Assembly (NCBI GenBank): GCA_027487485.1
Contig: JAIYDN010000091.1
Span: 186,001 to 250,000, forward strand
Reading direction: 5' to 3'
From: Planctomycetaceae bacterium
GTDB lineage: Bacteria > Planctomycetota > Planctomycetia > Pirellulales > Pirellulaceae
Length of the DNA stretch: 64,000 nucleotides
In this document: in pieces, positions 31,105 to 58,380 of the stretch
Layout of the letters: every line of letters begins with the position of its first letter
How positions within the stretch are numbered: the stretch's first letter is position 1
The notes under the pieces: generated by a model
The model's input: the letters and a program-made list of their open reading frames with translations, nothing else
Database searches by the model: none
Told to the model about the DNA's origin: nothing
Made by a program: the position numbers and the translations under genes

Positions 31105-31614
31105 ATGATCATGGACAACGATGAAACGCCCAATTCTGAGATCATCCTGTATCAAACCGAGGATGGCAGGACTCGCATTCAATGCCGATTTGAGAACGAG
31201 ATGATTTGGCTTACGCAATTATTGATTGCCGAACTTTTTCAGGTAACCGTCCCCACAGTGAACGAGCATCTGAAGGGAATCTTTGACGATGGCGAATTGG
31301 ATACTGGTGCAACTATTCGGAAATTCCGAATAGTTCGAATCGAAGGCAAACGCGAGGTATCCCGCGAGATCGAACACTACAACCTCCCCGCCATCCTCGC
31401 CGTCGGCTATCGCGTGCGCAGCCATCGAGGCACTCAGTTCCGACAGTGGGCCACGGCTCGATTGAGCGAATACCTTGTGAAGGGTTTCGCTTCCGTCGAG
31501 CTCGTCTCGGCGGGGCGCACAACTGAAAGCTACCAAACTCAACCCTGTTCAGCTCTCGCTTCCGTCGAGTTTATCTCGGCGGAGCAAACAACTGAAAGCT
31601 ACAACAGGTGCTAA
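31105..31614 (+). pseudogene. RhuM-family protein, C-terminus truncated
   Basis: The first 127 residues match the RhuM family (Salmonella virulence protein RhuM, often next to toxin or defence genes). They include EIILYQTEDGRTRIQCRFE, MIWLTQLLIAELFQVTVPTV, HYNLPAILAVGYRVRSHRGT and QFRQWATARLSEYLVKGF. Normal family members are about 330 residues and continue with a helical C-terminal domain. Here the frame runs after VKGF into a 69-bp-period repeat and stops at residue 169. The start ATG follows AGGATCGG. The N-terminal half may still be made, but the gene is best seen as decayed. Confidence 0.75.
31487..31602. repeat. Two 47-bp direct repeats inside the broken RhuM end
   Basis: A 47-bp unit starting TCGCTTCCGTCGAG and ending ACAACTGAAAGCTAC occurs at 31487-31533 and 31556-31602, with few differences. 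It marks the point where RhuM similarity stops and supplies the odd C-terminus (SVELVSAGRTTESY, SVEFISAEQTTESY). Confidence 0.8.
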
Positions 31615-31932: not shown

Positions 31933-32067
31933 ACCGGCTATGCATGAAAGAACCGATTTGAACCACGGAATACACCGAACACACGGAAATGAAAACATCG
32001 GATAGTAAGGCGTTCTTTCCGTGTGATCTGTGGTAGTCATCAGCTCAACCTGAAGCTTGCAATGACG
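31933..32067 (+). repeat. Dispersed inverted-repeat element, copy A
   Basis: This element begins ACCGGCTATGCATGAAAGAA, contains a hairpin whose arms are AACCACGGAATACACC.. and ..TTTCCGTGTGATCTGTGG, and ends CTGAAGCTTGCAATGACG. Copies B, C and D are at 32122-32219, 35632-35766 and 38826-38971. It carries no ORF. Confidence 0.8.
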
Positions 32068-32121: not shown

Positions 32122-32219
32122 AGAACCGATTACTGAACCACGGAATACACTGAACACACGGAAATGAAGACATTCGGAAGTTAGCCTCTTCTTCCGTGTG
32201 TTCCGTGGTTGTTAACAAC
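32122..32219 (+). repeat. Dispersed inverted-repeat element, copy B (shorter)
   Basis: The hairpin core is well kept (GAACCACGGAATACACTGAA with TTCCGTGTGTTCCGTGGTT), but the outer ends seen in the other copies are changed or missing. Confidence 0.78.
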
Positions 32220-35631: not shown

Positions 35632-35766
35632 ACCGGCTATGCGAGAAAGAACCGATTTAAACCACGGAATACAATGAACACACGGAAATGAAGCCATGTG
35701 GAAGTTAGCCATTTAATCCGTGTGTTCCGTGGTTGTCACCAACTCATCCTGAAGCTTGCAACGACG
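35632..35766 (+). repeat. Dispersed inverted-repeat element, copy C
   Basis: It starts ACCGGCTATGCGAGAAAGAA, has the ACCACGGAATACAATGAA / TCCGTGTGTTCCGTGGTT hairpin and ends CTGAAGCTTGCAACGACG. Similarity to copy A extends about 35 bp further upstream (CATCCATGCGTTATCTAAAC). Confidence 0.8.
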
Positions 35767-36202
35767 TGTCATCTCACGATCATGCTTGGGTTACAGCCAT
35801 CAACAAAGCCAAGTCGCTCCGGTCTGTCTGGGGTGACCGGTGCGTCCAGGGCGCTCAACAATGTTGGCCGACACGTTCTTGTAGAGATCGTTTCATCCAG
35901 AAAGTAAGTCGCAGCCAAAAACAGGAAACAGGGGCTGACCGGGCTGACCCCAAAAGTTCTGAACTCAGAGCTTTCTAGGCGTTCCTCACCGAAAGTGGGC
36001 CATCGCGTGCTTTGGTGAGTTCCGTCGTGTAGATCCAAACTAAGCTGTTCGACCAATTGAGAAATTTGGTCGCGTGCCCTGGAAGTTGTTTCGACGAAAC
36101 ATCGCCAGTGATAGACTAAGGGCTGTCTATGCTTGAGACTCCTTTGGAATAGACTAGCCCGACTTTGGATCGACGCCCAAATTGAAAGAGACGGTAGTGG
36201 AA
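35767..36202. other. Intergenic stretch without a gene
   Basis: No supported gene. GGGGCTGACCGGGCTGACCCC near 35930-35950 contains a short direct repeat (GGGCTGACC). This stretch holds the upstream region of the propeller-protein gene. Confidence 0.35.
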
Positions 36203-38689
36203 ATGTGGAGGAAGAAATACTTAATAGAATGCCCGCAAAGGTTGCGGTTTATCCTTGGTTTCTTGATGGTCGTCAGTTGCAATGCCTCTTTTCTTGACGC
36301 TCAAGATTCTAGCGACTCCTTTCCGGCAGCGCATAATCCGATTCACCGACTAGTTGTGACGGGTAAAGAAAAAGGCACAAGTACACCCGGTTTGAAATTT
36401 AGCCCGAATTGTCAGATGCTAGCCAGTTACACCAAACCTGGTTTTATGACTAAATCGCCCGATAATTCACCCCTCTCGATCATCGATGTCAAATCAGGAG
36501 TTTTGCAACTTGAGATTCCAGAAGGATGGATAGGGTTTGCCTTTTGCCCTGACAACGAACATTTTTTTACCTGGAGCTTAGATGCCGTTTCGCTATGGAG
36601 TTTTGCTGAACCGAAACACATAGCGCAGCTCAGACTCAGCAATGTCCAAAGAATCAAGTTCATATGTGATGGTAAGCGGTTCGTGACGGAAACATCCGAA
36701 GCTTCCTGGACCTTTCACGGGACAGACCGATTTCACATCCATTTTCCCGCAACTGTTAAGTTTTGGGATTTAGCAACATTGAAGCACATTCCAATGCCCA
36801 TTGATCAACTTGGACCGTGGGTTGATCCAATAGTAACACCCGACGGAAAGCTACTTGCTGGATTCGAATTGGAAAAGGAAAAATATTCTGTCGTAGAAGT
36901 GGAGACGGGCAACTTTCGGCCTGCTCCTTTAGAAGTTGAGGGCTGCGTTTACGGAACGAAACTTGCGATCGACGGTCAACAAGTCTTTTTCGGTGGAAGC
37001 CACCGGTCCGTTGGTGGCTGGAATCTCGCAACATCTAAACCTTCCGCACTTGGGGCTTTCTTTCAATTTCCGGAACATGAACTACCGGTGGAAATGCTCT
37101 CGATGCAGCGGAACGAGATCCTATCAAGCGAAACTCTAGTGGACCCAGCCAGTGTTTATTTTGAGCATTTGGAAAACAAATGGCGAATGAAAAACATCGT
37201 CTCAGATCAGATTGTCCAGGAGTTTCCAGATCAGACAAATCTCAAACCCTCCCCTCGTGATGAGGTTCATTTTTTGAATCCGAATCGAATGGTTCTTTCG
37301 AGACGTGCATGGACAACGAGGTTTTTTGATCTGACAACCGGAAAGAAGATTGCACAAATCGACTCTAGTCGGTCTAGCCACAGCATTGGGCTTTCGTCTG
37401 ACGGGCTTAAGATTGCATTCGGAGAGTTAAGTTGGTTTACCAACGATTCAATTTCTCGTGCGATAACTGTTTGGGATGTCAAGCATCAAAAGCAATTGTT
37501 CAGTTTTGACCAAGGTATTGTACCAAATGAATCCGTTCCTAATGGCTATGGTTTTCTTGATTTTCTGCCCAATGGCAATTTAATGTCCATTTCATCCACT
37601 GGGTATCGAGAGTCAACCAAAGGTTCGAATATCGAGTTGTTCGATGCAACAAGCGGTCGACTTCTTAAAGATTGCGTTCAGTGGTCGCCTGGTCCGGGCG
37701 ATGGCTTGATACATGCAACCTGCCAACATGGTGAACTGGTCGCTTATTCCATGACAAATGCGATATACATTTTGGACTCGAATGATCTTATTCTAAAACA
37801 CAAACTGATTGTGAACACGATAGCATCTCGGATTGGTTATTCGGACCCCAGCGTGGGGACAGCATATTGCCTCGTTTTTTCACCCGATGGCAGAAAACTG
37901 GCTGCGGCGTCGACCATTCCCGAAGGCAACCAGGTAACCTGCTGGAACGTATTGGATGGAAAGCTAGATTTCATCACGCATACGAATGGACCGATTGCGG
38001 ACTTACAGTTTGTCGAGAATGGTAAGTCGATTCAGCTTGTTGATATTTCCAAAGGCCGAGCAGTTCTAACAACGATTAGTGACTTCAGGAGATTAGAATC
38101 TGACAGACAGCTCTTTGCGAATCGATTTCCTCATCGAGAGATTGATCTTGGGTTAGATATGCATCCGGTGCTGAAAAATCTTATGTCTTGGAGAAACCGT
38201 CCGATACTCGCGAAGTTCAACGCGCAAACAAACAAGTTTGTGTGTGTGCTGGTCGATTCGCTGGCGGAGGAGAATTCGCTATTGCAGGCTCGTCAGTATG
38301 ATCTTTCTAGCGATACGATCTTGCGGCAAGCGAAAATGGAAAATCATGGCTTTCAAAAGGCGAAGGTCTCTGCGGATGGCAATTGCCTCGTCACTCTCAC
38401 TAGCGAGCCGGAACCTACAACTTACATCGTGGATACGGTTTCGGGAGAAATCTTATCGAAGATGGGAAATTCCGAGTTCTACGGGAAGAGCCCCAATGGC
38501 AAGTTGATGCTCTCTCGCGTCAAATCCGGGGGGTTGGTAAGCGTTTGGAACGTGGAGTCAGGTCATGAGATCGGTAAGATTCCGGGCGATGAATCTGCAA
38601 TCAGTTGTTTTTCTTCGGACAATGGCTATTTCGCAATTTCCAACGGTGGCAGTGTTTGTATTTGGCGTTTAACGCAATTCAATGATTGA
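36203..38689 (+). CDS. Secreted WD40-like beta-propeller protein
   Basis: From the ATG at 36203 the product has 828 residues with a signal segment (RFILGFLMVVSCNASFLDAQ). The rest is made of repeating blade-like units with the pattern FSPDGRKLAAAS..VTCWNVLDGKL, LSSDGLKIAFG..ITVWDVKHQKQL and YGKSPNGKLMLSR..VSVWNVESGHEI, ending in VCIWRL. This is typical of planctomycete WD40-like proteins without a kinase domain. It is probably a surface or periplasmic binding scaffold; no enzyme motif is seen. An in-frame TTG at 36182 is an alternative start. Confidence 0.75.
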   Translation: MWRKKYLIECPQRLRFILGFLMVVSCNASFLDAQDSSDSFPAAHNPIHRLVVTGKEKGTSTPGLKFSPNCQMLASYTKPGFMTKSPDNSPLSIIDVKSGVLQLEIPEGWIGFAFCPDNEHFFTWSLDAVSLWSFAEPKHIAQLRLSNVQRIKFICDGKRFVTETSEASWTFHGTDRFHIHFPATVKFWDLATLKHIPMPIDQLGPWVDPIVTPDGKLLAGFELEKEKYSVVEVETGNFRPAPLEVEGCVYGTKLAIDGQQVFFGGSHRSVGGWNLATSKPSALGAFFQFPEHELPVEMLSMQRNEILSSETLVDPASVYFEHLENKWRMKNIVSDQIVQEFPDQTNLKPSPRDEVHFLNPNRMVLSRRAWTTRFFDLTTGKKIAQIDSSRSSHSIGLSSDGLKIAFGELSWFTNDSISRAITVWDVKHQKQLFSFDQGIVPNESVPNGYGFLDFLPNGNLMSISSTGYRESTKGSNIELFDATSGRLLKDCVQWSPGPGDGLIHATCQHGELVAYSMTNAIYILDSNDLILKHKLIVNTIASRIGYSDPSVGTAYCLVFSPDGRKLAAASTIPEGNQVTCWNVLDGKLDFITHTNGPIADLQFVENGKSIQLVDISKGRAVLTTISDFRRLESDRQLFANRFPHREIDLGLDMHPVLKNLMSWRNRPILAKFNAQTNKFVCVLVDSLAEENSLLQARQYDLSSDTILRQAKMENHGFQKAKVSADGNCLVTLTSEPEPTTYIVDTVSGEILSKMGNSEFYGKSPNGKLMLSRVKSGGLVSVWNVESGHEIGKIPGDESAISCFSSDNGYFAISNGGSVCIWRLTQFND

Positions 38690-38825: not shown

Positions 38826-38971
38826 ACCGGCTACGCACGAAAGAACCGATGATTGAACCACGGAATACACAGAACACACGGAAATGAAGACATCCGGAAG
38901 TTAGGTTCTCTTTCCGTGTGTTCTGTGCGTTCGGTGGTTGGAAACAGCTTATCCTGAAGCCTGCAACGACG
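38826..38971 (+). repeat. Dispersed inverted-repeat element, copy D
   Basis: It starts ACCGGCTACGCACGAAAGAA, has GAACCACGGAATACACAGAA with TTCCGTGTGTTCTGTG and a short insertion (CGTT) before CGGTGGTTG, and ends CTGAAGCCTGCAACGACG. Confidence 0.8.
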
Positions 38972-39028
38972 ATCCAAATTTGGGAGAACTTCAATATCTC
39001 GATCGCGAGAAGTTGCGACGGAAAACGA

Positions 39029-39065
39029 AAAAACCCTGGGATTCACAAGGAAAACCAGGGTTTTT
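39029..39065 (-). terminator. Rho-independent terminator behind the tRNA-Asp fragment
   Basis: A perfect 11-bp inverted repeat, AAAAACCCTGG and CCAGGGTTTTT, with a 15-bp loop, ends 5 bp from the tRNA 3' end. Read on the minus strand it gives a stem followed by T residues. It is therefore the natural terminator of the tRNA gene. Confidence 0.7.
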
Positions 39066-39070
39066 GTAAG

Positions 39071-39112
39071 CGAGGTCGACGGGGCTCGAACCCGCAACCT
39101 CCGGATCGACAG
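39071..39112 (-). other. 3' half of a tRNA-Asp(GUC) gene; probable att site
   Basis: Read on the minus strand, the 42 bp hold the anticodon loop CTGTCGA (anticodon GTC), the 3' anticodon stem TCCGG, a variable loop, the T arm GCGGG-TTCGAGC-CCCGT, the acceptor 3' strand CGACCTC and the Asp-type discriminator G. The 5' half is missing: the next bases do not pair with TCCGG and no D arm is found. Similarity stops at the anticodon loop, a usual crossover site for tyrosine recombinases. Confidence 0.8.
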
Positions 39113-39359
39113 CTGGACAGCAAAAACTGCAAAAAGCACCAAAACTGCTGGCAAATTCGACTTTTCTCACCCGTCCCAGAAAATTCGTTGCACTCAATGT
39201 TGCACTCGAAGTTGGACGCTCCTGAAAAGGAGTGGTCTTTTCGGCCCCGAGCAAACTGCTGCGAACTTCCAACCAAAGTTGGTTCGATTCTCTGCCGGTC
39301 GTCCTATCTCCCTGTCTCTTCCGGGGATCGAGGAGGTCAAAAGTGCAGTCTAAATCAAA

Positions 39360-39939
39360 ACGCAAGTCCCTCAAGCGACCAAGTGTCCGTGTGCAACGAA
39401 TCGAAGCGATGGTCGGACTGACCAAAAACTTCAAGCTCTTCACCAACTCGGTTGGAGTTCCCATGGTGGACTTACCAGAGACATCCGCGACGGGTACCCC
39501 TCCGACGCAGAAACGATTCCCAATGTTTTCTTTGCGGATCCTGACGTATCCACGTTTCGATCGTACTGCGAGAAACGCGATTCATATCTGGTAGGTCATT
39601 ATGTTTCATCCGACGGGCAACTTGTTCTGGCGACCAATAGCTGGCAATGCCAGACCGAACGCGTTCGCTGATCTCAGGGATATCCATTTTTCTCGTCAAG
39701 GGTCAATTGGATCATCGCATTTTCGCCAATTTTTGGGCATGAACCGCAGAGTATTCTTGATTGCAAGCGTTTCGAGTTCGTTCTCGAAAAATCGTGGACC
39801 GAGATCTGCCTAAGGCGGCAGCAATTTTTGCGTCGGAAGCCTTCGATAACACCATCAGAGATATCTTTTCTCGTTCCTGGAATGTAAGCTGATAGGGTAT
39901 TGTTGAGACTCCGTTCGAATGACCTTGTGATAAAGACAT
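39360..39939 (-). pseudogene. IS30-family transposase remnant
   Basis: Three frames together give pieces of an IS30 transposase. The N-terminal HTH is YQLTFQEREKISLMVLSKAS, then DAKIAAALGRSRSTIFRE (stop at 39712). The second piece is YWSPEQVARRMKHN with VSRSTIETWIRQDPQRKHWES (39472-39699). A third frame holds VPVADVSGKSTMGTPTEL. Intervening frameshifts and the missing DDE catalytic core show it is dead. A related short fragment lies at 43731-43800. Confidence 0.7.
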
Positions 39940-43730: not shown

Positions 43731-43800
43731 TCACAGAACCACCAGGTTTCCCATGTTGGAATCACCTGAAACATCCGCGACGGGTACACTTTTGGTACCC
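43731..43800 (-). repeat. Short IS30-related fragment
   Basis: On the minus strand this encodes VPVADVSGDSNMGNLVV, matching VPVADVSGKSTMGTPTEL of the remnant near 39470-39500. The plus-strand sequences share ACATCCGCGACGGGTAC exactly. It is a second, smaller scar of the same IS. The rest of 43581-44064 shows no gene. Confidence 0.6.
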
Positions 43801-44588: not shown

Positions 44589-46877
44589 ATGACACCAACA
44601 ATAGATAGTCAAACTGATAATGCAACTAGTGAATCCCAACCAACTTCCGGTCGCTGGCTGCGGGACTCGACTGGGACATATGAAATCCAGTACGACAAAA
44701 AGGGGAGGCTTCTAAATCGGATCGCGAATCAACTCGTCAGAATCTTTCAGATTCTGTTCGTCATTGTCGGCGGAAAGGCAAATATCGAGTATTGGGTAGA
44801 GTTCGCTGACGCGTACTGCAACGTCAAGGTTCGAATTAGTCACGAAGACTTGTCGGATGAGAAAGCATTTTTACGCTCTGCTCCTGCAGGATTCTCCTTA
44901 GGCACTGGGTTCGGAAAATTTAGTCAGCTTCGAGAGTGCCTAATGTCGGACCTTGCGCATGCAATGCGTACTGCGGTTCTAACCACCTTAGGCTGGTATA
45001 TCTGGAAAGGTGAAACGATTTTTGCCCATGCAGGTGGCATTTGTTCCGCAAGTCCCTACTTTAAAAAGTTGGATCCAACGGACAACGGAACAGCGGAAGT
45101 CCTTGATCTGATTGACATTGACGTAGTGTGTTCCGAAACTCCGATTCTTGCAGGACAAAACAAACCTATATCGGATGTCCTCGTCGAAGTTCCGCCTCAG
45201 CTTGCAAAGTACAAGCTTCTAAAGCCAGACTCAAAGGAGGACGCATGCAACTCTGTTAAATGCGTAATCGAGTTACTTTCCTGCGATATCCCTGCGATTT
45301 ACATCGGTGTAGCTGCGATATTCGCTGCTGTAATACGTGACCCCCGGTATGGTATCTTTCTATATGGTGACACCGGGTCGATGAAAACCGCGTTTGCTAA
45401 GATACTTTTGAGCTTCTTTGTTCCGAACGCTGGTGAAGAAGATTGCGTCTCATTCACATCGACCGCCAATGCGCTTCGAGCGTTTTTTGCGGCGAGTGGC
45501 AATGTCGCCGTGGTGATAGACGATTTCCTAGCAAGAAATGGGCATAGCCAAACTTCTGAAGAGGTCAAAAAAGTAGATGACTTTCTAAGATCTGTCACGA
45601 ATGGTACAGGCAAAGATAGGTGCGGTAGCGACGGTCAACTACGCAGCAGTCCGCGTCCTCGCGGCTTACCAATTTTGACGGGTGAAGAGCTTCCCGATGG
45701 AAGTGAATCTTTGAAGTTGCGAACCATCAACGTGCCAGTAGATAAAACGACGTTTGCAACGCTAACGAATGGCGACCGTCCTAATCACTTCGATCGCTTC
45801 CAAAGTTTGGCCGCCTCTGGGACTTTTTCAAAGGCGATGTATTTCTTCGTCGGGATTCTCGCTGGGAGACTAAACCAAGCAAGGATTTCCCTAAATCTAT
45901 TTTCAACTTGTGCCGAACCTCAACTTCACAGGCGTCTAGCTGATTCGACCTCTGAACTCCTGGCGAGCATGCGAGTCTTTCTCATTTATGCAACTGCATT
46001 CAAAGCATGTTCCGAAGAGGAGGCTGAGACCATCTTTGACCGAACCTGCAGTGCGATTCATTCGATTCGACAGCGTGCTGTTCTAGAATCGGTAGAGAAT
46101 TCGCCGGTAGAAAAATTCCTTATGCTTCTTCGGGAGAGCATGATCGCTAAAAAATGTCACATCGAAGTCGATCGTCCAGATTTGCACAACGAAGAAGACA
46201 ACTTCGTTCCGCTGAAATTACTTGGTTATTCTGAGCATAAAGTAGAGAAAGATCAAGAACGAGACGTGGACGAATCCAATGACGAAATGGTTGCTCCAGA
46301 ATACCAGACTATTCACAAACCCCACGGCAAACCTATCGGTTCTGTCGACCGTTCTAACACTCTGGACCTTACTCCGTCCGCTGCTTTAGAGGCTGCAAAC
46401 ATTTTAGCCAAGAACTGCGGAATGAATCCGCTGCCATCTGCAAAAGTGATAGGAAAGAAGTTGGCTGCAAAAGGATATCTACAAAAGCAGAGTAACGACC
46501 GTAATACCTACAAAATCCGATGTGGAGGTATTACTGTGGACGTCTGGAGAATGGACATCCTGCACTTGTTTGAGGCCGTCATCGACGGATGTGGTTTCGA
46601 AATTGGTTGTCTCACAGACTTGAACGAGGAAGATCGGATAGCAAAGGTAAGAAACTTCAATGAGGAGGCGAGGGTAAAGTTGACCCAAAAGTTTGAGCAA
46701 TGCTTTGAAAGTATATTGAATCCCTTCGTGGAACAAAACGAACGAGCATTGCTACTAACGCCACCGCCATTGCCTGCAGAGTTGCATGCACGTTCGCTCC
46801 CGAAACCTCCGGCAATCAGCCCACCGTATGTTCCAGGGTGGAGCGAGCCTATAGATCTGGACGACTTTTTAACGTGA
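44589..46877 (+). CDS. DUF927-like mobile-element ATPase
   Basis: The 762-residue protein has an excellent AAGGAG ribosome site. A central P-loop (YGIFLYGDTGSMKTAFAKI, about 253-271) is preceded by a segment like the DUF927 N-terminus (LTTLGWYIWKGETIFAHAGG). An acidic Walker B-like strand (VAVVIDDFLARNG) and a sensor region (GLPILTGEEL) follow. DUF927 and related ATPases occur in plasmids, phages and integrative elements as primase/helicase-type replication proteins. The C-terminus (about 600-700) looks like a winged helix (AANILAKNCGMNPLPSAKVI). With the HTH gene before it, I read this as the replication or maintenance module of the island. Confidence 0.65.
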   Translation: MTPTIDSQTDNATSESQPTSGRWLRDSTGTYEIQYDKKGRLLNRIANQLVRIFQILFVIVGGKANIEYWVEFADAYCNVKVRISHEDLSDEKAFLRSAPAGFSLGTGFGKFSQLRECLMSDLAHAMRTAVLTTLGWYIWKGETIFAHAGGICSASPYFKKLDPTDNGTAEVLDLIDIDVVCSETPILAGQNKPISDVLVEVPPQLAKYKLLKPDSKEDACNSVKCVIELLSCDIPAIYIGVAAIFAAVIRDPRYGIFLYGDTGSMKTAFAKILLSFFVPNAGEEDCVSFTSTANALRAFFAASGNVAVVIDDFLARNGHSQTSEEVKKVDDFLRSVTNGTGKDRCGSDGQLRSSPRPRGLPILTGEELPDGSESLKLRTINVPVDKTTFATLTNGDRPNHFDRFQSLAASGTFSKAMYFFVGILAGRLNQARISLNLFSTCAEPQLHRRLADSTSELLASMRVFLIYATAFKACSEEEAETIFDRTCSAIHSIRQRAVLESVENSPVEKFLMLLRESMIAKKCHIEVDRPDLHNEEDNFVPLKLLGYSEHKVEKDQERDVDESNDEMVAPEYQTIHKPHGKPIGSVDRSNTLDLTPSAALEAANILAKNCGMNPLPSAKVIGKKLAAKGYLQKQSNDRNTYKIRCGGITVDVWRMDILHLFEAVIDGCGFEIGCLTDLNEEDRIAKVRNFNEEARVKLTQKFEQCFESILNPFVEQNERALLLTPPPLPAELHARSLPKPPAISPPYVPGWSEPIDLDDFLT

Positions 46878-49995: not shown

Positions 49996-50679
49996 CTAAC
50001 GCTCGATGTTCTTTCGCATTCCGCTTGAAATCGTTTTGTATTGGTCGCGAAACCACAATCGCCCAAGTGTGGATCGAAGCTTGTTTACGATTCGATTGTG
50101 GCATCGCCCAAGTCGCTTCCTGCTTCCACAAGGGCAATTTTGGTGATTCGCCTTACGCCTAGGACGACCAGTAAGTCGTAGCAACTCCTTTGCCACCTCT
50201 TGTGATCCAACACCGTAAATATCCATGAAGTCATCAATGATACCTCTTCTCCCGTGTTCGAGTTCTCCGAACGGTAGGGGTTTTGCTTGTTCATGCAACA
50301 CAAACGCATAAAGATATGGGATGACACATTTTTCGATAAACGAGCGAAGTTTTGGGTCTTGGTGAACAATCAATTTCTGTCGAGTCGGTGAGCCAAGACA
50401 TAGAGCGCCACATTGCAATCGATGAAAGTCTTTGGGGATCCGATTGCCCAATGGAGTAACCAACGGGATTGTGTGGGGGTGGTCGATCAAAAACTCAATC
50501 TTCAATTCAAACGAATCGGTTACCGCGTCGTGGTCCGGCTTCATTGCATTGAAGTCCAGCCACCCTGAAAGCGTTAGGATGTTCGAATTGGTTGGAAGGA
50601 TCGACAGTCCTGGAAATGTGCTCAATGCTCCTGGGATATCCCATTGTTCGATATTCCCTGATGTATAGGACGCGATCAT
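49996..50679 (-). CDS. E2-like protein with SEC-C tail (CBASS type II-short ancillary)
   Basis: From the ATG at 50679, which overlaps the CD-NTase stop by 4 bp (ATGA), the product is 227 residues. The first 130 have a UBC/E2-type outline: strand FELKIEFLIDHPHTIPLV, then NRIPKDFHRLQCGALCLGSP with the likely catalytic Cys94 (Cys90 nearby), then a helical end. The C-terminus carries a SEC-C zinc motif (NCPCGSRKRLGRCHN). No E1-like or JAB-type gene is present, so the system fits the E2-only CBASS type, where an E2-like enzyme acts directly on the cyclase. The SEC-C tail is an unusual addition. Confidence 0.75.
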   Translation of the reverse strand: MIASYTSGNIEQWDIPGALSTFPGLSILPTNSNILTLSGWLDFNAMKPDHDAVTDSFELKIEFLIDHPHTIPLVTPLGNRIPKDFHRLQCGALCLGSPTRQKLIVHQDPKLRSFIEKCVIPYLYAFVLHEQAKPLPFGELEHGRRGIIDDFMDIYGVGSQEVAKELLRLTGRPRRKANHQNCPCGSRKRLGRCHNRIVNKLRSTLGRLWFRDQYKTISSGMRKNIER

Positions 50680-51839
50680 TTCCCCCAAGGCCTCGGAGCA
50701 TTTGGGATTACCAACGGTGCTGGTGAACTGACACGAATTGCAGGTCCAACCGAGGATCGTCGTATTCCGACCTGGTCATCGTCCAATCGAATCTTAAGAC
50801 TCTTCGTGATTGATTCTTGGAGCCGTTCACCTTCCAATTGTCCTAGCAGTCTGTCGATATCCGCAACCAGCTGCATATGCCAAAGCCTAAATGCATTTTC
50901 GTACGCGGGATCGCTTGCCCAACGATCAGCAAAATCTTCCTTGGGATTAACTGGATTCTGAATTCGCGGCTTCTGATCGCTGATAAAGTTTGGCATTCTC
51001 AAAGCGATGTCCTTAACGGCCAAGCCGATTTCCGACTGTCCTCGGTAGGCGTGGGTCGCAAGCGTTGTGATGATCATTGAGATCGGTGCATAGGTCGCAT
51101 CGTCTTGGAACATAACGTCTCGATGACGCTTGAGAATCTGAATTGCGCGTTGCAGTACAGTCTTCCATTCATAAGGTGGAATCTCCTCAATCGATGCATA
51201 GCTCCGATTGACGACCATTTCTTCAAGTCGACGTCTTGCGAACGGGCGTGTTTTCGCTTCGAACCATCGCGCAAAGCCTCGCGGATTACTGCTGTACCAA
51301 TCAGCAGCAATCTTTTTGTAGTTCTTGTGTCGATTGTCAGTAATCGCGATCTCGTGCTCAGCAAATTCAAATGGAACCATTAGCCTAAGGCGTTCATTGA
51401 TTGCATCCATGCTGTTCGGAATCCCCGGAAGTATGTCCATGTGGAAACTTACACCATCTGCATAGTTGAGCCTCCAGCAGCGAGGTTTCTCGGATGCTTC
51501 CTCGTTGAAGTTCATCGCTTTGGCGTACGCTTTTATCTCCTCGCCTAGAAGCAACTTGACTTCCTCTTGTGTTACCTTGGTTATCGATAGATCAAAGGTA
51601 CAAACCAAGTCTAAGTCATAGTAGCCGTCCTCGTGAATTGGACGAATTACCGTGCCATATCGAAACGAACCTTGAGGGTACACCTCAGGCTTCAATCCTA
51701 AGACGCTTGAATTATCACGAAGCAACCAATCTTCAAGTGAGCAAGCTCGATCAAGTGCTTTCCGGTAATAGGACTCCGGAATATCCAATTCCTCGACGAT
51801 CGACTCAAGCAACCGTTCACGGTTAATGTAATGATTCAT
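50676..51839 (-). CDS. CD-NTase (CBASS nucleotide cyclase)
   Basis: The 387-residue protein has the polymerase-beta-type nucleotidyltransferase active site: Gly57-Ser58 (YPQGSFRYGTVIRP), Asp75-x-Asp77 (GYYDLDLVC) and Asp135 (SFHMDILPG). The C-terminal helical part follows (WKTVLQRAIQILKRHRDVMF). Such enzymes make cyclic oligonucleotides after phage sensing and activate the effector. The C-terminus reads NAPRPWGK with a Gly next to last, which matters because type II cyclases are conjugated through their C-terminus. It lies 11 bp after the phospholipase gene. I did not assign a clade. Confidence 0.88.
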   Translation of the reverse strand: MNHYINRERLLESIVEELDIPESYYRKALDRACSLEDWLLRDNSSVLGLKPEVYPQGSFRYGTVIRPIHEDGYYDLDLVCTFDLSITKVTQEEVKLLLGEEIKAYAKAMNFNEEASEKPRCWRLNYADGVSFHMDILPGIPNSMDAINERLRLMVPFEFAEHEIAITDNRHKNYKKIAADWYSSNPRGFARWFEAKTRPFARRRLEEMVVNRSYASIEEIPPYEWKTVLQRAIQILKRHRDVMFQDDATYAPISMIITTLATHAYRGQSEIGLAVKDIALRMPNFISDQKPRIQNPVNPKEDFADRWASDPAYENAFRLWHMQLVADIDRLLGQLEGERLQESITKSLKIRLDDDQVGIRRSSVGPAIRVSSPAPLVIPNAPRPWGK

Positions 51840-51850
51840 TTTGCAATCCC

Positions 51851-52813
51851 TTATGCAGCAGAAGTTGAGTTGAGTTGACGAAATGATGCGTCCGGAACCT
51901 GATGATTCCCGAACACTGACGTGAAGGTTGGCGCAAATTTGCGAGCCTCATGTGAAGCCTCAGCGAGCAGTTCGTCTTCACTGAGCTTATCTAGTGCGAA
52001 AAGTCCGTCCGGTACCATCGGATCAAGTCGAATTGCCCGTTCAGTCGACAAGAGCAATTGAGCCTGCCCCTGAACTCCGTGACTCTGGCCTCGAAGTGCT
52101 GCATCGACCCCCATCTTTCGCCAATGCCACCATCCACCGCAGTCGAGCTTTCTCGATTTTTTGGAAATGGAGTTCGTAGTACCAAGGCTCAAAGTTGAAA
52201 TGGAGTCCAATGGTACATTGAGTAAGCTGACAGCTTCTACGATGCCAACCATTGTTGGGTTGTTGGCCCAGAGTCCGCCGTCAACCAGTCGCATTCCATC
52301 AACATGGTGGCAACAAGGGAAATAGGTAGGCGCGGCACTCGTTGCCAATGCAACCTTCCAAACGGGAACTTTGCCGTCGGTTGTGAGTCGTTTATGGTGC
52401 GGAGTCTTAAAGACGTAAACCTCGTCTTTTGCGAGATTGTACGAAGGGATGACTAGTCGACGTTTGCTGTCGGCGATTACTTGATCGCCGAAATGCTTCT
52501 TTAAAGCCGCCATTAGTGGATCCTGCGAAAACTTGCTCCGCATGCTCCATTTAAGAGATGTCCAAATGGGCGTTTTCCGAAAAATCTTTGGGCCTTCGGA
52601 CACGTAAAAATGGACGATCTCCCGTGGCCTCATCCCCATCCCAAGTCCGAGAGCGATGATCCCGCCCGTTGATGTTCCGGTAATCAAGTCGAAATGATCT
52701 ACGACACGAGTCCCGAGCGATTCCTCTATCTTCGCCAGCAAAGCGGCTGAAAAGAGTCCTTTTATCCCGCCGCCATCCAGCGACAAAATCTGAAATTTCC
52801 CTGCCTTTTCCAT
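51851..52813 (-). CDS. CapV-like patatin phospholipase (CBASS effector)
   Basis: From the ATG at 52813 (GGAGG ten bases upstream) the product has 320 residues. All patatin features are present: the oxyanion loop LSLDGGGIKGLFSA, nucleophile Ser48 in ITGTSTGGIIALG, and Asp178 in RLVDGGLWANNP, with ATSAAPTYFPCC between. CapV-type effectors are activated by the cyclic nucleotide and degrade membrane phospholipids, killing the infected cell. It is the first gene of the minus-strand operon. The longer open frame adds 32 residues with no conserved features. Confidence 0.9.
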   Translation of the reverse strand: MEKAGKFQILSLDGGGIKGLFSAALLAKIEESLGTRVVDHFDLITGTSTGGIIALGLGMGMRPREIVHFYVSEGPKIFRKTPIWTSLKWSMRSKFSQDPLMAALKKHFGDQVIADSKRRLVIPSYNLAKDEVYVFKTPHHKRLTTDGKVPVWKVALATSAAPTYFPCCHHVDGMRLVDGGLWANNPTMVGIVEAVSLLNVPLDSISTLSLGTTNSISKKSRKLDCGGWWHWRKMGVDAALRGQSHGVQGQAQLLLSTERAIRLDPMVPDGLFALDKLSEDELLAEASHEARKFAPTFTSVFGNHQVPDASFRQLNSTSAA

Positions 52814-52866
52814 GACCAACAGTCCTCCATTAACGAAAAGTCGCGAGTCGTCAAAGCACAATGCTT

Positions 52867-52957
52867 GTTCAACTATAACGAATATAGCAGCATTCCCAAT
52901 TAAGTTCAACTACGGGCGAACAGGACTGTTGTCGCAACGAATCCGCCATGGTACGAT
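52867..52957. promoter_or_regulatory. Divergent promoters with paired 9-bp boxes
   Basis: On the minus strand, TTGAAC (52904-52909), a 17-bp spacer and TATATT (52881-52886) form a good promoter for capV. TAGTTGAAC occurs twice on that strand, at 52904-52912 over the -35 and at 52867-52875 at the expected +1. On the plus strand, TTGTCG (52929-52934), a 17-bp spacer and TACGAT (52952-52957) would start RNA at about the ATG of the XRE gene, which has no ribosome site. Repressor boxes and a leaderless message are inferred. Confidence 0.6.
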
Positions 52958-52963
52958 TTGGAA

Positions 52964-53416
52964 ATGGCAGCAAAAAAAGTGGAAAATAAAATCGAACCGT
53001 CACCCTTATCCCGGTTGTCGCAAAACATTCGTGCGGCGCGACTCGCCGCTGGCTTAACGTTGGAACAGTTAGCGGGCGAATCAGGAATCTCCAAAACCTA
53101 CCTTTGGGAATTGGAGAACGACGAGAGCGGCCAGAAACGCCCATCGGCGGAAATACTGCTCAAGGTTGCGAACATCCTTAAGACGACCATCGCAGATTTG
53201 ATGGGGCTACCCTCGGTTCAAGTCAACAAAGCCAAAGTCGAAGTGAGTCCATCGCTAATTGAGTTCCGCGACATGATGGTGACAATGGAAACACCGCTCT
53301 CCGATGAAGACCTCCAATCGCTGGCCTCGACTCGTTTTCGAGGTGGGCAGCCAACATCCAAAGAAGGCTGGTACGATCTCTACTCGGCATTGAAACGGGC
53401 GACTGGAAGGAAGTGA
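52964..53416 (+). CDS. XRE-family regulator (CapH-like)
   Basis: The 150-residue protein from the ATG at 52964 has an N-terminal Cro/cI helix-turn-helix (LSQNIRAARLAAGLTLEQLA, then GESGISKTYLWELENDE and SAEILLKVANILKTTIADLMG). A C-terminal extension follows (about 85-150, SLIEFRDMMVTMETPLSDED). It is one base ahead of the metallopeptidase gene and divergent from capV. XRE-metallopeptidase pairs of this type (CapH-CapP) control CBASS operons, with the protease cutting the repressor upon DNA damage; the pairing and place support that reading here. It may also regulate its own operon, which includes the SNF2/type III genes. Confidence 0.82.
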   Translation: MAAKKVENKIEPSPLSRLSQNIRAARLAAGLTLEQLAGESGISKTYLWELENDESGQKRPSAEILLKVANILKTTIADLMGLPSVQVNKAKVEVSPSLIEFRDMMVTMETPLSDEDLQSLASTRFRGGQPTSKEGWYDLYSALKRATGRK

Positions 53417-53417
53417 A

Positions 53418-54368
53418 ATGCCGAGAAAGTCTGGGCCTATAAGATATCACGAACATGTAGTGGCAATCATCGAGGAAATGGGTGTGGAAGACCCGCGAGA
53501 GGCCGTTCGTCAAAAAGCAAGGGTAGTGCTCGGTAACTTGCTCCCACTGTTTCCTAACCCGCCGCCATTCAATATGCAGGAGATTGCAAGTTGCATTGGA
53601 TTGCATGCATCCGACGAAGAACCCAGCTTTAGTGCAGACTCGGAGATTGCCCCCGATAGCGACGGCAATGTAGTACTACGAATCAACAAGAGTCGCCCAA
53701 TAACGCGACAACGCTTTAGCATCGCTCATGAGATTGGCCATACGTTATTTCCCGATTACCAACTCGCTGTCAGATGTCGCAAGGCACATGATAAACGTTG
53801 GAATGACGATGATTTTCTCGAAACACTTTGCGATGTCGCGGCGTCCGAATTCATGTTTCCATTGCCATGGTTTGAAAACTCCGTTACATCGCTGCAAATG
53901 ACCGGCGAATCGGTTGCTAGCTTGGCCGACGAGTACCAAGCTTCTAGAGAAGCAACCGTACGACGGCTTGTTGAATTGCACCCCGAGCCGATGGCCGCAG
54001 TGTTCTTCAGCTGGAAACTGAAACCCGTAGAGCACAAGCAGGTGCGACGCAATGAGAACAAGCCCTTTCTTTGCGAGAGCTTTCGCCCAGATGAGCCCGA
54101 GAAGAAACTACGCGTAGACTATCCAATCCTGAACGAATCGTTTCGCAGTCAAGTGCTTGACCATATACCCGTTCACAAATCGATTCCGAACGAAGGTCCC
54201 ATCTATCAAGCAGCGACGACACTGTCACCGTGCGATGGAACTGCTGTCGTAAGTTTTGGACGAATTGAAAATGAGTACCGCATTATCGCACTACCAATCT
54301 ACACCGATGAAGCCGACTTTGGACCGAACAACGCAAGTTCGGTAGTTGCATTGTTGAGGCCTATCTAG
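53418..54368 (+). CDS. ImmA/IrrE-type metallopeptidase (CapP-like)
   Basis: The 316-residue protein has the zinc-peptidase motif RFSIAHEIGHTLFP (His104, Glu105, His108) and the downstream third-ligand helix ETLCDVAASEFMFPLPWF, then LADEYQASREATVRRLVEL. This is the ImmA/IrrE fold that cleaves XRE repressors. A C-terminal domain (about 200-316) has no recognised fold; in CapP-type proteins the C-terminal part is linked to sensing. It is adjacent to the XRE gene and 5 bp from the SNF2 gene, so all are one transcript. Confidence 0.85.
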   Translation: MPRKSGPIRYHEHVVAIIEEMGVEDPREAVRQKARVVLGNLLPLFPNPPPFNMQEIASCIGLHASDEEPSFSADSEIAPDSDGNVVLRINKSRPITRQRFSIAHEIGHTLFPDYQLAVRCRKAHDKRWNDDDFLETLCDVAASEFMFPLPWFENSVTSLQMTGESVASLADEYQASREATVRRLVELHPEPMAAVFFSWKLKPVEHKQVRRNENKPFLCESFRPDEPEKKLRVDYPILNESFRSQVLDHIPVHKSIPNEGPIYQAATTLSPCDGTAVVSFGRIENEYRIIALPIYTDEADFGPNNASSVVALLRPI

Positions 54369-54373
54369 CGTAT

Positions 54374-57300
54374 GTGCTTTCATTATCCCCAACGATCAAC
54401 GGCGAGCCCGAGCAGGTTGCACAATTGGAAATAATCGACAACATCAATCAGCTTTTGGGAGACAATCTCAAATCAACCATCGCTCCAAAGTCAAGGCTCA
54501 AGATTGCAGCTTCGTGTTTTTCAATCTACGCGTTTGAAGCACTGAAGAAGGAACTCGAAAAAATCGATTCCCTGGAGTTTATTTTCACATCTCCAACTTT
54601 CGTTCCCAACGAAGTAACCGACAAGATCAAGAAGGAACGTCGCGAGTTCTTTATCCCCAAACTGGAACGCGAACGTGGGTTCTACGGAACTGAATTTGAA
54701 ATCCATCTCAAGAACAAGCTGACTCAACGGGCTATCGCAAAAGAGTGTGCGGACTGGATGCGACGAAAAGCTCAATTTCGCTCCAATCGTGGTAAGGCTC
54801 CGATGCAACAATTTGCCTGCGTCCAAAATCCGGATGCACAAGCCGTCTATTTGCCTCTTCATGGATTCACTGCGGTTGACTTAGGCTACCAACAAGGCAA
54901 CGCCGTTTCGAACATCGTCAACAAAATTGATGAGTCATCGATGACCGGCATCTACTTGGGACTGTTCAGTCAAATTTGGAATGATCCGGAAAAACTTGAA
55001 GACGTAACGAGTAGCATTTGCGATCACATCGCGTCGGTCTATCAAGAGAACTCACCCGAACGCATTTACTTCTTGATGCTTTACAACATCTTCAATGAGT
55101 TCCTAGAAGACATCAACGAAGACGTCCTTCCTAATGACTTGACTGGTTACCAAGAAAGCCTCATTTGGAAAAAGCTCTTCAATTTCCAACGCGATGCGGC
55201 GACAGGAATCATCAACAAACTCGAAACCTACAATGGATGCATCCTGGCCGACAGCGTCGGTCTAGGCAAAACGTTTACTGCGTTGGCAGTCGTCAAATAC
55301 TATGAGCTTCGCAATCGTTCGGTTTTGGTTCTTTGTCCAAAGAAGTTGGCGGACAACTGGCTCACGTACAATCGCAATCTTAAGACCAACATATTTAGCA
55401 AGGATCGTTTCAACTACGACGTTCTTTGTCATACCGACCTTCAGCGTACAAGCGGAGAATCCTTTGGAACGCCACTCAATCGAGTGAACTGGGGCAACTA
55501 CGACTTGGTGGTCATCGACGAGTCGCACAACTTCCGAAACAACGACGCGTTCAAAGAGCGAGAGACCCGCTACCAGAAATTGATGAACATGGTTATCAAG
55601 GAAGGCGTGAAGACCAAGGTACTAATGCTCTCGGCAACGCCCGTCAACAACCGCTTCAACGATTTGCGAAATCAACTCGCTCTCGCCTACGAAGGCAATT
55701 CAGAAACAATCAATGCAAAGCTCAAGTCAGGTAAGGACGTCAATGAAATCTTCCGACGGGCTCAAGCTGCATTCAATACTTGGTCTAGCCAACCGCCAGA
55801 GCAACGAACCGCCGCTTCAATCCTGAGCGCGTTGGATTTTGATTTCTTCGAGTTACTGGACAGCGTCACTATTGCTAGGTCACGCAAGCACATCCAAACC
55901 TTTTACGACATGAAGGATATCGGAAATTTTCCAGAACGTCGCAAGCCACTTTCGTTTCATTGCCCCCTAACCGAGAGAACGGACGTTATCGGTTTCAACG
56001 CAATTTTCGATCAGCTTTCTATGATGAAAATGGCCGTGTACGCACCGCTTAGCTATATCCTTCCAAGCAGGCTTCGCAAATACGAAGAAATGTACGACAC
56101 GGAAGTCGAAGGCAAGGGGAAGCTGCGACAAGCTGACCGGGAGAAGAGCCTCCAGACGCTCATGACCGTAAGTCTACTCAAACGACTAGAAAGCTCCGTG
56201 GAAGCGTTTCGACTTACGTTGCGGCGGCAATCATTCAAGTTAAATGCGACGCTGAGCAAAATCGAAGCCTTCCAAGCGACCGGACGCGACGCAAGCGTCG
56301 AGGATGTATCTAGGGCGTTTGAAAATTCAGAACCAGACGATGATGACTTTAGCGATTCCGATGAATCCCAGATTGGTGGAAAAGTTCAGATCAACCTGGC
56401 CGACATGGATTTACCCTCCTGGGAATACGATCTGCGGGCCGACCTATTTGTGGTCGAGTCCCTCCTCCGTGAGATGGAGAAGGTGACACCCGATCAAGAT
56501 GCAAAGCTTCAGCATCTAAAGTCGCAAATCGCAAACAAGCTTGCATACCCATTCAATCCCGGTAACAAGAAAGTACTCTTGTTCACGGCATTCGCCGACA
56601 CGGCGAATTACCTATACGAACATATTGCCGCTGACTTGCTTCGGTCTCAGGGACTCCACACGGGCAAGGTAACCGGTAGCGATAGTCCCAAGTCAACAAT
56701 CAAAAAGACCTACGACTTCCAATCTCTATTGACGCTGTTCTCGCCTCGGTCCAAAGAAAAGGCATCGATACTTCCTTCGGAAACGGCTGAGATCGACATC
56801 CTCATCGGCACAGACTGCATTTCTGAGGGGCAAAACCTTCAGGACTGTGATACCGTCATCAACTACGACATCCATTGGAATCCTGTACGGATCATTCAAC
56901 GTTTCGGTCGTATTGATCGTATTGGTTCGCCAAACGCTACGATTCAGCTAATAAACTACTGGCCAGACATAACGCTGGACGAGTACATCAATCTCAAGGA
57001 GCGAGTCGAGAACCGGATGGTCATCGCTGACGTTACAGCGACGGGTGATGACAATATTCTGACTCCCCCAACCAATGAAGTCGGCTATCGAAAAGAGCAG
57101 TTGCGTCGACTGCAAGAAGAAGTCATTGAGATGGAAGATCTTAAGACAGGTGTCTCGATAACTGACCTTGGCTTGAACGATTTCCGCATGGACCTGCTGA
57201 ACTACATGAAGACCAATGGCCAGCTAAGCAATCTTCCAAATGGAATGCATGCGGTCGTTTCCGCAGCACCCGAGCGTGGACTACCGGCAGGAGCAATTTT

Positions 57301-57694
57301 TACGCTGCGCAACGTCAACAACAGCATCAACACAAACCAGCACAATCGCCTGCATCCTTACTATCTCGTCTATGTCGGTAACGATGGTAAGGTCGTTACG
57401 AACCATACCGAAGTAAAGCGTCTTCTCGATTTGGTTCGCTCAGCATGTAAAGGAAACGACGAGCCAGTGGCAGAGGCATGCAGGCTTTTCAATGCATCCA
57501 CGCAAGAAGGTCGCGACATGCGTTTCCACTCTTCGTTGCTGGACCAGTCTATTCGGTCAGTCGTGGACGTTAAAGAGGAGCGAGACATTGACAGCCTGTT
57601 TGTGAGCGAGCGAACAACAGCTTTGATTGGAAGTATCGCTGGCCTTGAAGACTTCGAGCTAATCAACTTTCTGGTCATTCAGGGCAAGGAGTAG
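54374..57694 (+). CDS. SNF2-family helicase with PLD-like N-terminus
   Basis: The 1106-residue protein starts at a GTG six bases after the metallopeptidase stop; an ATG two bases earlier is in another frame. The N-terminal 230 residues resemble a phospholipase D-type fold (KSRLKIAASCFSIYAFEALK, GTEFEIHLKNKLTQRAIAKE) without a clear HKD motif. The helicase core has Walker A (LADSVGLGKTFTALAV), the DESH box (VVIDESHNFRN), SATPVNNRFNDLRN, and the C-terminal lobe LIGTDCISEGQNLQDCDTVI, then WNPVRIIQRFGRIDRIGS. It is a DNA translocase. Helicases of this kind occur beside DUF4391 and type III-like Mod/Res genes; the N-terminus may bind DNA. Confidence 0.9.
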   Translation: MLSLSPTINGEPEQVAQLEIIDNINQLLGDNLKSTIAPKSRLKIAASCFSIYAFEALKKELEKIDSLEFIFTSPTFVPNEVTDKIKKERREFFIPKLERERGFYGTEFEIHLKNKLTQRAIAKECADWMRRKAQFRSNRGKAPMQQFACVQNPDAQAVYLPLHGFTAVDLGYQQGNAVSNIVNKIDESSMTGIYLGLFSQIWNDPEKLEDVTSSICDHIASVYQENSPERIYFLMLYNIFNEFLEDINEDVLPNDLTGYQESLIWKKLFNFQRDAATGIINKLETYNGCILADSVGLGKTFTALAVVKYYELRNRSVLVLCPKKLADNWLTYNRNLKTNIFSKDRFNYDVLCHTDLQRTSGESFGTPLNRVNWGNYDLVVIDESHNFRNNDAFKERETRYQKLMNMVIKEGVKTKVLMLSATPVNNRFNDLRNQLALAYEGNSETINAKLKSGKDVNEIFRRAQAAFNTWSSQPPEQRTAASILSALDFDFFELLDSVTIARSRKHIQTFYDMKDIGNFPERRKPLSFHCPLTERTDVIGFNAIFDQLSMMKMAVYAPLSYILPSRLRKYEEMYDTEVEGKGKLRQADREKSLQTLMTVSLLKRLESSVEAFRLTLRRQSFKLNATLSKIEAFQATGRDASVEDVSRAFENSEPDDDDFSDSDESQIGGKVQINLADMDLPSWEYDLRADLFVVESLLREMEKVTPDQDAKLQHLKSQIANKLAYPFNPGNKKVLLFTAFADTANYLYEHIAADLLRSQGLHTGKVTGSDSPKSTIKKTYDFQSLLTLFSPRSKEKASILPSETAEIDILIGTDCISEGQNLQDCDTVINYDIHWNPVRIIQRFGRIDRIGSPNATIQLINYWPDITLDEYINLKERVENRMVIADVTATGDDNILTPPTNEVGYRKEQLRRLQEEVIEMEDLKTGVSITDLGLNDFRMDLLNYMKTNGQLSNLPNGMHAVVSAAPERGLPAGAIFTLRNVNNSINTNQHNRLHPYYLVYVGNDGKVVTNHTEVKRLLDLVRSACKGNDEPVAEACRLFNASTQEGRDMRFHSSLLDQSIRSVVDVKEERDIDSLFVSERTTALIGSIAGLEDFELINFLVIQGKE

Positions 57695-57699
57695 GCGTA

Positions 57700-58371
57700 A
57701 TGCTTTTCGAATATCCCAAGAAAGCTGCGTTTGATCGTGTCGTTCCAAAGGCAAAATTCTACGAGCGAGCTAAGCCAACTAAAACCGTGAAGGACAAGTT
57801 CGTTTCTCAAGTGTCGCAGATTCTGTGGAGTTACAAGCTCGCTCCAGAAACGATTAATCTTCCAGCAAGCAACGGTGTCCGCGAGGTTCAGATATTCACG
57901 ATTACTACAAAATCCGCTGCTCTTGGCGAAGATGTACTTCGTTGCATCGACAAATCGATTCCCTCTCCAATCGTCTTTGAAATCCATTTCGATTTGAAGG
58001 TTAAGGTAGCTGCGGCTTACAAACGTATTGAAGACGCAAACACTTCAAATGCGGTAGCAAGCAACTATTTCTCGTCGGGTTGGATTCCTTTGGATACATC
58101 GCGAAAGGTACTGCCAGTCGTATTGGACATGAGTAGCCTCTACGAGAAGATGTTGCTCCCTCTAATTGGAATACCGCAAAGAAGCGGGGAAAGCCTCGGT
58201 GAACTTGTATCGCGGGCGTGTAGCATACGATCAAAGCAGAGCGAGCTGAATAAACTAGCCGTCAAAATTAAAGCCGAGAGGCAATTCAATCGAAAGCTTG
58301 AGTTGAACTCGGAATCGCGATCACTTCAAGCTGAAATTGAGCTTCTATCTGGCTTAGAACAAGGATACTAG
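57700..58371 (+). CDS. DUF4391 protein
   Basis: The 223-residue protein has the DUF4391 layout. The start is LFEYPKKAAFDRVVPKAKFYE, with KDKFVSQVSQILWSYKLAPETINL and IFTITTKSAALGEDVLRCID in the middle. The C-terminus ends in a coiled-coil-like helix (KQSELNKLAVKIKAERQFNRK). The family has no known activity, but its genes are regularly found between a SNF2 helicase and a type III methyltransferase. It is 5 bp from the helicase and 9 bp from mod. It may bridge the helicase and the Mod-Res complex. Confidence 0.82.
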   Translation: MLFEYPKKAAFDRVVPKAKFYERAKPTKTVKDKFVSQVSQILWSYKLAPETINLPASNGVREVQIFTITTKSAALGEDVLRCIDKSIPSPIVFEIHFDLKVKVAAAYKRIEDANTSNAVASNYFSSGWIPLDTSRKVLPVVLDMSSLYEKMLLPLIGIPQRSGESLGELVSRACSIRSKQSELNKLAVKIKAERQFNRKLELNSESRSLQAEIELLSGLEQGY

Positions 58372-58380
58372 GAGTTTGCC

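Follow-up and report, generated by a model that had tools for sequence, protein, structure and literature searches.

Evidence for a 54-kb defence-bearing integrative island in a planctomycete tRNA-Asp gene, and the integrase family behind it

Phage attachment sites (attP) of the L5/lambda type carry direct-repeat arm sites on both sides of the core. In myxophage Mx8, integration reportedly alters the C-terminus of the integrase IntP, as the title of a 1996 paper by Tojo et al. has it. The integrases of Mx8 and SSV extend across attP, according to the available part of the Islander description (PMC4383910). In archaeal suicidal integrases (SSV, pTN3, pT26-2), as portrayed in the accessible sections of a review, the att site lies inside the integrase gene, SSV1 cleavage borders the anticodon loop, and integration splits the gene, leaving an enzyme expected to be inactive (PMC8371274). 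Islander tRNA-gene islands, in the same available part of their description, combine an intact tDNA with a displaced 3' fragment in the same orientation, an integrase inside, an anticodon-centred crossover and a size of 2-200 kb; tandem arrays are known (PMC4383910).

The locus described here was reached from a 64,000-nt stretch of DNA from a planctomycete, probably of the Pirellulales (the window, the whole stretch analysed), which corresponds to positions 186001-250000 of contig C3 in a 7.49-Mb genome of 114 contigs. A 54,240-bp integrative island almost certainly occupies a tRNA-Asp(GUC) gene there, inserted by its own right-end tyrosine integrase, with the 3' half of the gene displaced to 39 kb. 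The island DNA runs from window position 39113 to 64000 and on to C3:279352, 29.35 kb past the window end. This size falls in the Islander range, and the interval holds an intact tDNA and a displaced 3' fragment in the same orientation with a tyrosine integrase inside. As far as the excerpted Islander description goes, the likeness covers the bounding tDNA and fragment, their orientation, the internal integrase, the anticodon-centred crossover and the size range; the planctomycete host, the duplicated terminator, the paired 12-bp arm-like repeats and the defence-rich cargo set the island apart (PMC4383910). Its 5-kb bins have 45.9-49.2% G+C and the flanking bins 48.6-54.1%, ranges that overlap slightly. 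The island itself is a member of a well-known kind; the integrase family behind it is the part worth following.

The displaced 3' half of tRNA-Asp(GUC), comprising tRNA positions 33-75 and representing the attR core, was located by pattern search and alignment at window 39070-39112 on the minus strand. ARAGORN calls no tRNA at window 39 kb, so the sequence there is a fragment, and the 5' half is replaced by unrelated sequence (5/32 identities). The tRNA-Asp terminator hairpin follows on the same strand (window 39024-39070), folds at -17.6 kcal/mol (z -4.3; equalled by 0/200 shuffles) and is duplicated at the other end. Because an A-tract and a T-tract flank this hairpin, the terminator is probably active in both directions. 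When up to three mismatches are allowed across the 7.49-Mb genome, a 44-nt 3'-half pattern has exactly two sites, both exact (C3:225069-225112 and C3:279309-279352), and its reversed control has none. The last 24 letters of this pattern match once in the window at ≤3 mismatches (0/100 shuffles). Three other candidates were set aside: C3:168354, considered as a third fragment, belongs to an intact tRNA-His, whose terminator is similar; the tRNA-like sequence of window 39281-39305, taken by eye for another tRNA 3' end, has no second genome copy at ≤3 mismatches; and a tRNA-Val at window 30480 is on an unsuitable strand for an island anchor.

The intact tRNA-Asp(GUC) lies 54.24 kb to the right of the fragment (C3:279310-279384), on the same contig and likewise on the minus strand, which places the fragment 54.2 kb to its 3' side. 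Both ends carry a 117-bp minus-strand direct repeat, the att duplication (window 38996-39112, or C3:224996-225112, and C3:279236-279352), with 95% identity. The alignment of the two copies ends at the first anticodon-loop base, and the last ~90 bases of the repeat, terminator included, are identical. The tyrosine integrase, of 489 residues, is encoded on the plus strand at C3:277630-279099 (Phage_integrase, E 6.6e-21), on the island side of the intact tRNA and convergent with it. An Arg, HxxR, His and Tyr set, which we take to be the catalytic residues, is invariant in 8/8 aligned proteins of the integrase family, this one included. Just before the integrase gene at the right end, a small HTH protein matches an excisionase family (E 1.2e-10) and is a likely excisionase. 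The initial annotation, which had recognised the anticodon-onward half of tRNA-Asp with its terminator and without its 5' half, had placed an intact minus-strand gene beyond 64 kb, a tyrosine recombinase beside it and a second repeat copy to the right; all of these are present, the repeat in the correct orientation. The 42 bp that it gave for the repeat proved too short, being part of the 117-bp repeat that extends past the terminator. Its assignment of the defence genes from 39.1 kb onward to the island also holds, as CBASS, type III restriction-modification and other genes lie between the fragment and the intact tRNA.

A pair of 12-bp direct repeats, GTTGCACTCAAT and GTTGCACTCGAA, lies beside the fragment on the plus strand (window 39187-39210) and is taken as probable P' arm-type integrase sites; a partner pair, likewise of probable arm sites, is at C3:279173-279196 beside the integrase. 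The pairs agree at 17/22 positions, and 0/300 shuffles are as good. The TTGCAC motif is absent within 230 bp to the left of the fragment, so that, with a repeat pair to its right, the direction of the island is supported independently. Relaxase, conjugation/T4SS and virion genes are absent among 37 of the island's ORFs scanned with Pfam, several of which have no match; PHROGs were applied to eight proteins. The integrase as sole query found nothing in genome contigs.

These features are consistent with a simple course of events, in which the recombination origin, the crossover point and the binding of the repeats by the integrase are deductions from sequence. The tyrosine integrase would have recombined attP with the 3' half of the tRNA-Asp gene, with crossover at or near the anticodon loop. 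The island would thereby have brought a replacement 3' half and terminator and so have made the tRNA at the right end whole again, while the original 3' half and terminator would have been displaced to window 39 kb. Since the attL and attR copies are identical far past the end of the tRNA gene, attP would have carried a host-like terminator, suggesting either transfer inside the species group or gene conversion at a later time.

The left flank has a history of its own. What remains of a second, related integrase gene is 26 bp of its 3' tail, abutting the fragment (window 38970-38995, plus strand); this remnant matches the tail of the island's own integrase gene and stays in frame through the terminator. 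A 22-base motif of this tail has only two sites in the genome at ≤3 mismatches, the remnant and the island's own integrase tail. Because the remnant abuts the fragment, an older element probably stood in tandem at the left, so the neighbour of the fragment is probably an older related element rather than clean chromosome. On the simplest account, such an element would have entered the same tRNA first, its integrase end standing left of the fragment; the present island would then have integrated beside it, and the older one would have been mostly deleted. The genome search at ≤3 mismatches gave no further half tRNA-Asp to mark where the older element began on the left, and the lone remnant is evidence of a past tandem, not of a present array. 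The same region contains an 86-nt repeat in four copies (window 31947-32032, 32122-32207, 35646-35731 and 38842-38927); the copy at 38.8-38.9 kb is an imperfect palindrome, and related copies are dispersed over many genomes of the genus. Also left of the island are a beta-propeller-like protein of 835 residues (window 36182-38689), with no counterpart among the matches listed from 26 other genus genomes, and a RhuM-family protein (window 31105-31614), probably a remnant, which matches only the first 61/252 profile positions.

An unoccupied tRNA-Asp with the same right flank occurs in one relative. Among 60 genomes, the window's own (G000) included, the whole right-flank query is matched in only one other, G002 (90% over 751 bp). 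There the tRNA-Asp is free of an island, and the 117-bp att region shares 96% identity with the fragment copy. The left neighbours of this tRNA-Asp, presumably DUF1592/DUF1552-like, sit on another contig (C97) in the window's genome, and one lineage must therefore have undergone a rearrangement of the left flank. The initial annotation had the chromosome continuing leftwards and the insert extending rightwards, and proposed a check for an empty site in relatives: the insert direction is borne out and the right flank adjoins an unoccupied tRNA-Asp in G002, but the left side begins with the integrase-tail remnant instead of clean chromosome, and its neighbours differ between the two genomes.

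The anticodon loop of tRNA-Asp is a recurrent target, judging from fragments in other genomes. Half tRNA-Asp fragments with the same first base are present in G005, at 42 kb from the intact gene, and in G040 and G058; one in G008 is decayed. In G005 (L088, L130; C1:538-581 kb), the half-tRNA boundary is shared by another tRNA-Asp island, of ~42 kb. To the eye, the far (fragment) end of this island is where an integrase-like frame begins, so the site may also serve an integrase of a different type. In G040 (contig C69), at 7.66 kb of L138 and left of the half tRNA-Asp, a period-12 repeat and a possible integrase tail are visible by eye outside the fragment, an arrangement that would suit a further tandem element at this place.

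The island is equipped with CBASS and type III restriction-modification, and with two or more other predicted defence genes. From the left, its cargo begins with an unknown 752-residue protein and a DUF927/primase-like protein (window 44589-46877, plus strand), which matches DUF927 just under the cut-off (E 1e-4; 22.4 bits against 22.6) and a PHROG DNA primase (E 5e-7) and may serve in replication of the element. Next, ahead of CBASS, come proteins with an RNase H1 N-terminal domain, with DUF5677 and with ASCH. The CBASS genes, assigned by profile matches, encode an E2-like protein (49996-50688), a DncV-like CD-NTase as the oligonucleotide cyclase (50676-51839) and a patatin-like phospholipase effector (51851-52909), all on the minus strand, followed on the plus strand by a CapH-like HTH regulator and a CapP-like metallopeptidase (52958-54368). 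Cyclase, E2-like protein and effector without a separate E1 characterise type II-short CBASS; the predicted system fits that type, and no E1-only model matched among the proteins scanned. Beyond CBASS, the plus strand encodes an SNF2-type helicase (54374-57694; HKD+Snf2 system C3a139 in PADLOC) and, by profile match, a DUF4391 protein with a type III DNA methyltransferase (57700-60516) and a type III restriction enzyme (61321-64000, on to C3:250353). A 1110-residue AAA ATPase-phosphoribosyltransferase-like fusion follows (C3:250484-253816; profile match, PRTase-CE or PADLOC PRTase_III-A), then a large Hhe/PDC-S37-like helicase-nuclease and, between it and the integrase, further genes. Within the left end of the island, a 40-nt repeat of 88% identity occurs at window 39458-39497 and 43748-43787; a nearby frame resembles an IS30-type remnant by eye and has no Pfam match.

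The integrase belongs to a family with a recurrent layout. Matches at E ≤0.001, many of them weak, occur in 133/147 genomes, the window's own included. Among the best 30 loci, 26 (this one included) have a tRNA within 1.5 kb, covering 12 isotypes, and the tRNA is convergent with the integrase in 26/26. When stretches of up to 60 kb were searched for this island and 12 other elements, a 3' half fragment of the same tRNA was found on the integrase side in 10/13 (nine of the 12 others), starting at tRNA position 24-33 and lying 5.8-54 kb away; none was found for G103 and G093 within 60 kb or for G123 within 22 kb. All ten elements with a fragment have a direct-repeat pair of 12-bp period between integrase and tRNA that matches another pair next to the far fragment, towards the island (17-21/22 letters; 0/300 shuffles as good in each). 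The repeat sequence varies between elements (GTTGCACC, GTTACACC and GCTTGCAC are examples) and agrees between both ends of one element.

A second set of 64 tRNA-bearing loci, for which ~10 kb upstream was covered, repeats the pattern. A period-12 pair lies near the tRNA in 58/64, compared with 7/64 in a stretch 1 kb upstream, and periods of 8-11 and 13-15 give pairs in 0-3/64. The pairs match at both ends in 13/13 resolved elements of this set (16-22/22 letters), a fourteenth (L267) having been dropped for a match outside the tRNA. Among more distant integrases, the same holds for 5/8 resolved elements (17-22/22), and L208, L212 and L217 have no pairs. Boundaries are thus resolved in 10 of 13, 8 of 29 and 13 of 64 elements, 31 together with this island counted, and 28/31 bear matching 12-bp repeat pairs at both ends, which are probable arm-type integrase binding sites. 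L213, of 200 bases, is left out of the counts. Plasmids and phages searched with an integrase relative from G059 gave nothing.

In most relatives, the integrase reading frame also crosses the attachment site. In tblastn frames of the first 26 loci, it runs antisense into the tRNA and stops inside in 20, passes beyond in one and stops before in five, this island among them. A further 39 loci include 29 with a convergent tRNA, which the frame enters in 26. Among 89 loci from viral and GTDB contigs, a convergent tRNA lies within 900 bp in 64, and the frame enters it in 64/64 (49 stop inside, 15 beyond); 25/89 have no such tRNA, several of them with short, different integrase tails. Read across the circle junction, the frame passes the core and stays open for 50-139 codons in 27/31 resolved elements (7/10 and 20/21), some of which are close kin and not independent. 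Four elements differ. In this island, G052 and L199 the frame ends short of the tRNA; in G013 it ends 5 nt short of the core end as defined by BLAST, so this element is not among the 27, although its far side has 55 open codons in the integrase frame. Of the three frames, that of the integrase is the longest in 25/27, the exceptions being the mutually related G040:C55 and G040:C216. Since the frame is open across attP, integration would swap the integrase C-terminus in relatives: the tail should be replaced by residues encoded antisense to the tRNA, leaving the catalytic domain whole.

Several tails share a similar helical-looking end segment ('SFSAALAMIASLPLSDAEKADAVRRLM' in seven, 'AWPTLPDAIRRGIMAMV' in six), and two tails compared with Pfam had no significant match. 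A tail profile, A2, has 0 matches in 294 genomes of the phylum and is uninformative; another, A3, matches in 31/199. Thirty A3 loci were compared with a library of 176 tRNAs: eight show part of a tRNA 3' end ahead of the tail (weak in L364), four a full tRNA and 18 nothing; L365 and L370 look off-target by eye. An integrase lies upstream in 2/30, in neither case in the same reading frame. The only tail pair close enough for dN/dS gives 0.44, which is weak evidence. At L334 (SYJG01000487.1), where no tRNA gene was found, an integrase frame of 658 codons takes in what looks like the 3' half of tRNA-Ala, along with a repeat pair and a tail. The two repeat pairs of this contig are unlike each other by eye, so it may be a tandem-element junction rather than a circle.

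On balance, it is probable that the island is a derived member of a family in which the attP core lies inside the integrase coding sequence and a helical tail of the circle form is exchanged on integration, acting as a state sensor. In the free circle, the integrase would bear an extra C-terminal helical tail from the far end, read through the P' arm repeats. Integration would cut off this tail and replace it by an antisense reading of the remaining host tRNA, usually a few residues and sometimes more. The enzyme could then be integration-competent in the circle and different, perhaps excision-limited, in the chromosome, with its catalytic domain kept. The island's own integrase ends 213 bp short of the tRNA, and its frame does not run through the att core as in Mx8. 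Its arm repeats lie just downstream of the stop in another frame, and no recognisable tail domain is found at the far end of the island. With its early stop and its repeats downstream in another frame, this integrase is a derived or detached form of the family.

The family resembles Mx8 IntP in having an integrase coding sequence across attP and an altered C-terminus, as read in 27/31 resolved elements, a likeness drawn from frames and not from tail sequences. Unlike Mx8, it uses many tRNA isotypes and its members are islands rather than phages, and the present integrase has no overlap. In contrast to the archaeal suicidal integrases, as far as the accessible sections describe them, the family keeps its catalytic domain intact, and the exchange would be confined to a tail of 50-139 residues (PMC8371274). 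It departs from the L5/lambda arrangement in the 12-bp period of its repeats, their element-specific sequence and their frequent position inside the integrase coding sequence.

Other origins for the fragment account for less of the evidence. It could be the leftover of an older element, the present island having used another site and the intact tRNA at 279 kb being a coincidental neighbour. The second integrase-tail remnant fits this account, since more than one element has probably used tRNA-Asp, but the arm pair next to the fragment shares 17/22 letters with the pair beside the integrase at 279 kb and the genome holds no third half-tRNA copy at ≤3 mismatches, which makes such a leftover very unlikely. 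A segmental duplication of part of the tRNA gene, rather than site-specific recombination, would explain why the repeat exceeds the tRNA part and includes the terminator. It is exceedingly improbable, however, because the anticodon-loop base at which the repeat ends is also the boundary of the G005, G040 and G058 fragments, the integrase is convergent with the tRNA in 26/26 tRNA-bearing loci, and repeats of at least 110 bp occur in two other family members, G052 and G013.

Insertion of the island by its own integrase accords with the fragment-tRNA layout of its relatives; the lack of a clean empty site, the different left flank in the closest relative, the identity of the att copies far past the tRNA gene and the slight overlap of the G+C ranges count against it. 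The fate of an earlier related element in the same tRNA, mostly lost, is likewise a deduction. Whether the island still moves is a separate matter. It could be a genuine island that has lost its mobility, with an integrase tail short by family standards and excision perhaps dependent on another element, a possibility we regard as doubtful. The early stop, the out-of-frame arm repeats and the missing tail domain point that way; against it stand a complete catalytic domain and the retention of both arm pairs. An early stop need not mean loss of function, since G052 has one too and still has its arms and a fragment.

A guess from raw sequence has thus become a precisely bounded 54-kb defence island. 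Its cargo demonstrates that entire defence sets can be housed on elements of this kind. A full-text literature search gave, among the matches listed, no planctomycete case of an attP-spanning integrase; Mx8 is the bacterial precedent for a tail swap. For planctomycete mobile islands, the family supplies a simple rule of delimitation: a half tRNA, matching 12-bp pairs and a convergent integrase. If the tail swap is true, bacteria would have, on many tRNA isotypes, a relative of what one review, in its accessible sections, calls exclusively archaeal behaviour (PMC8371274), and the swap would provide a directly testable switch between integration and excision.
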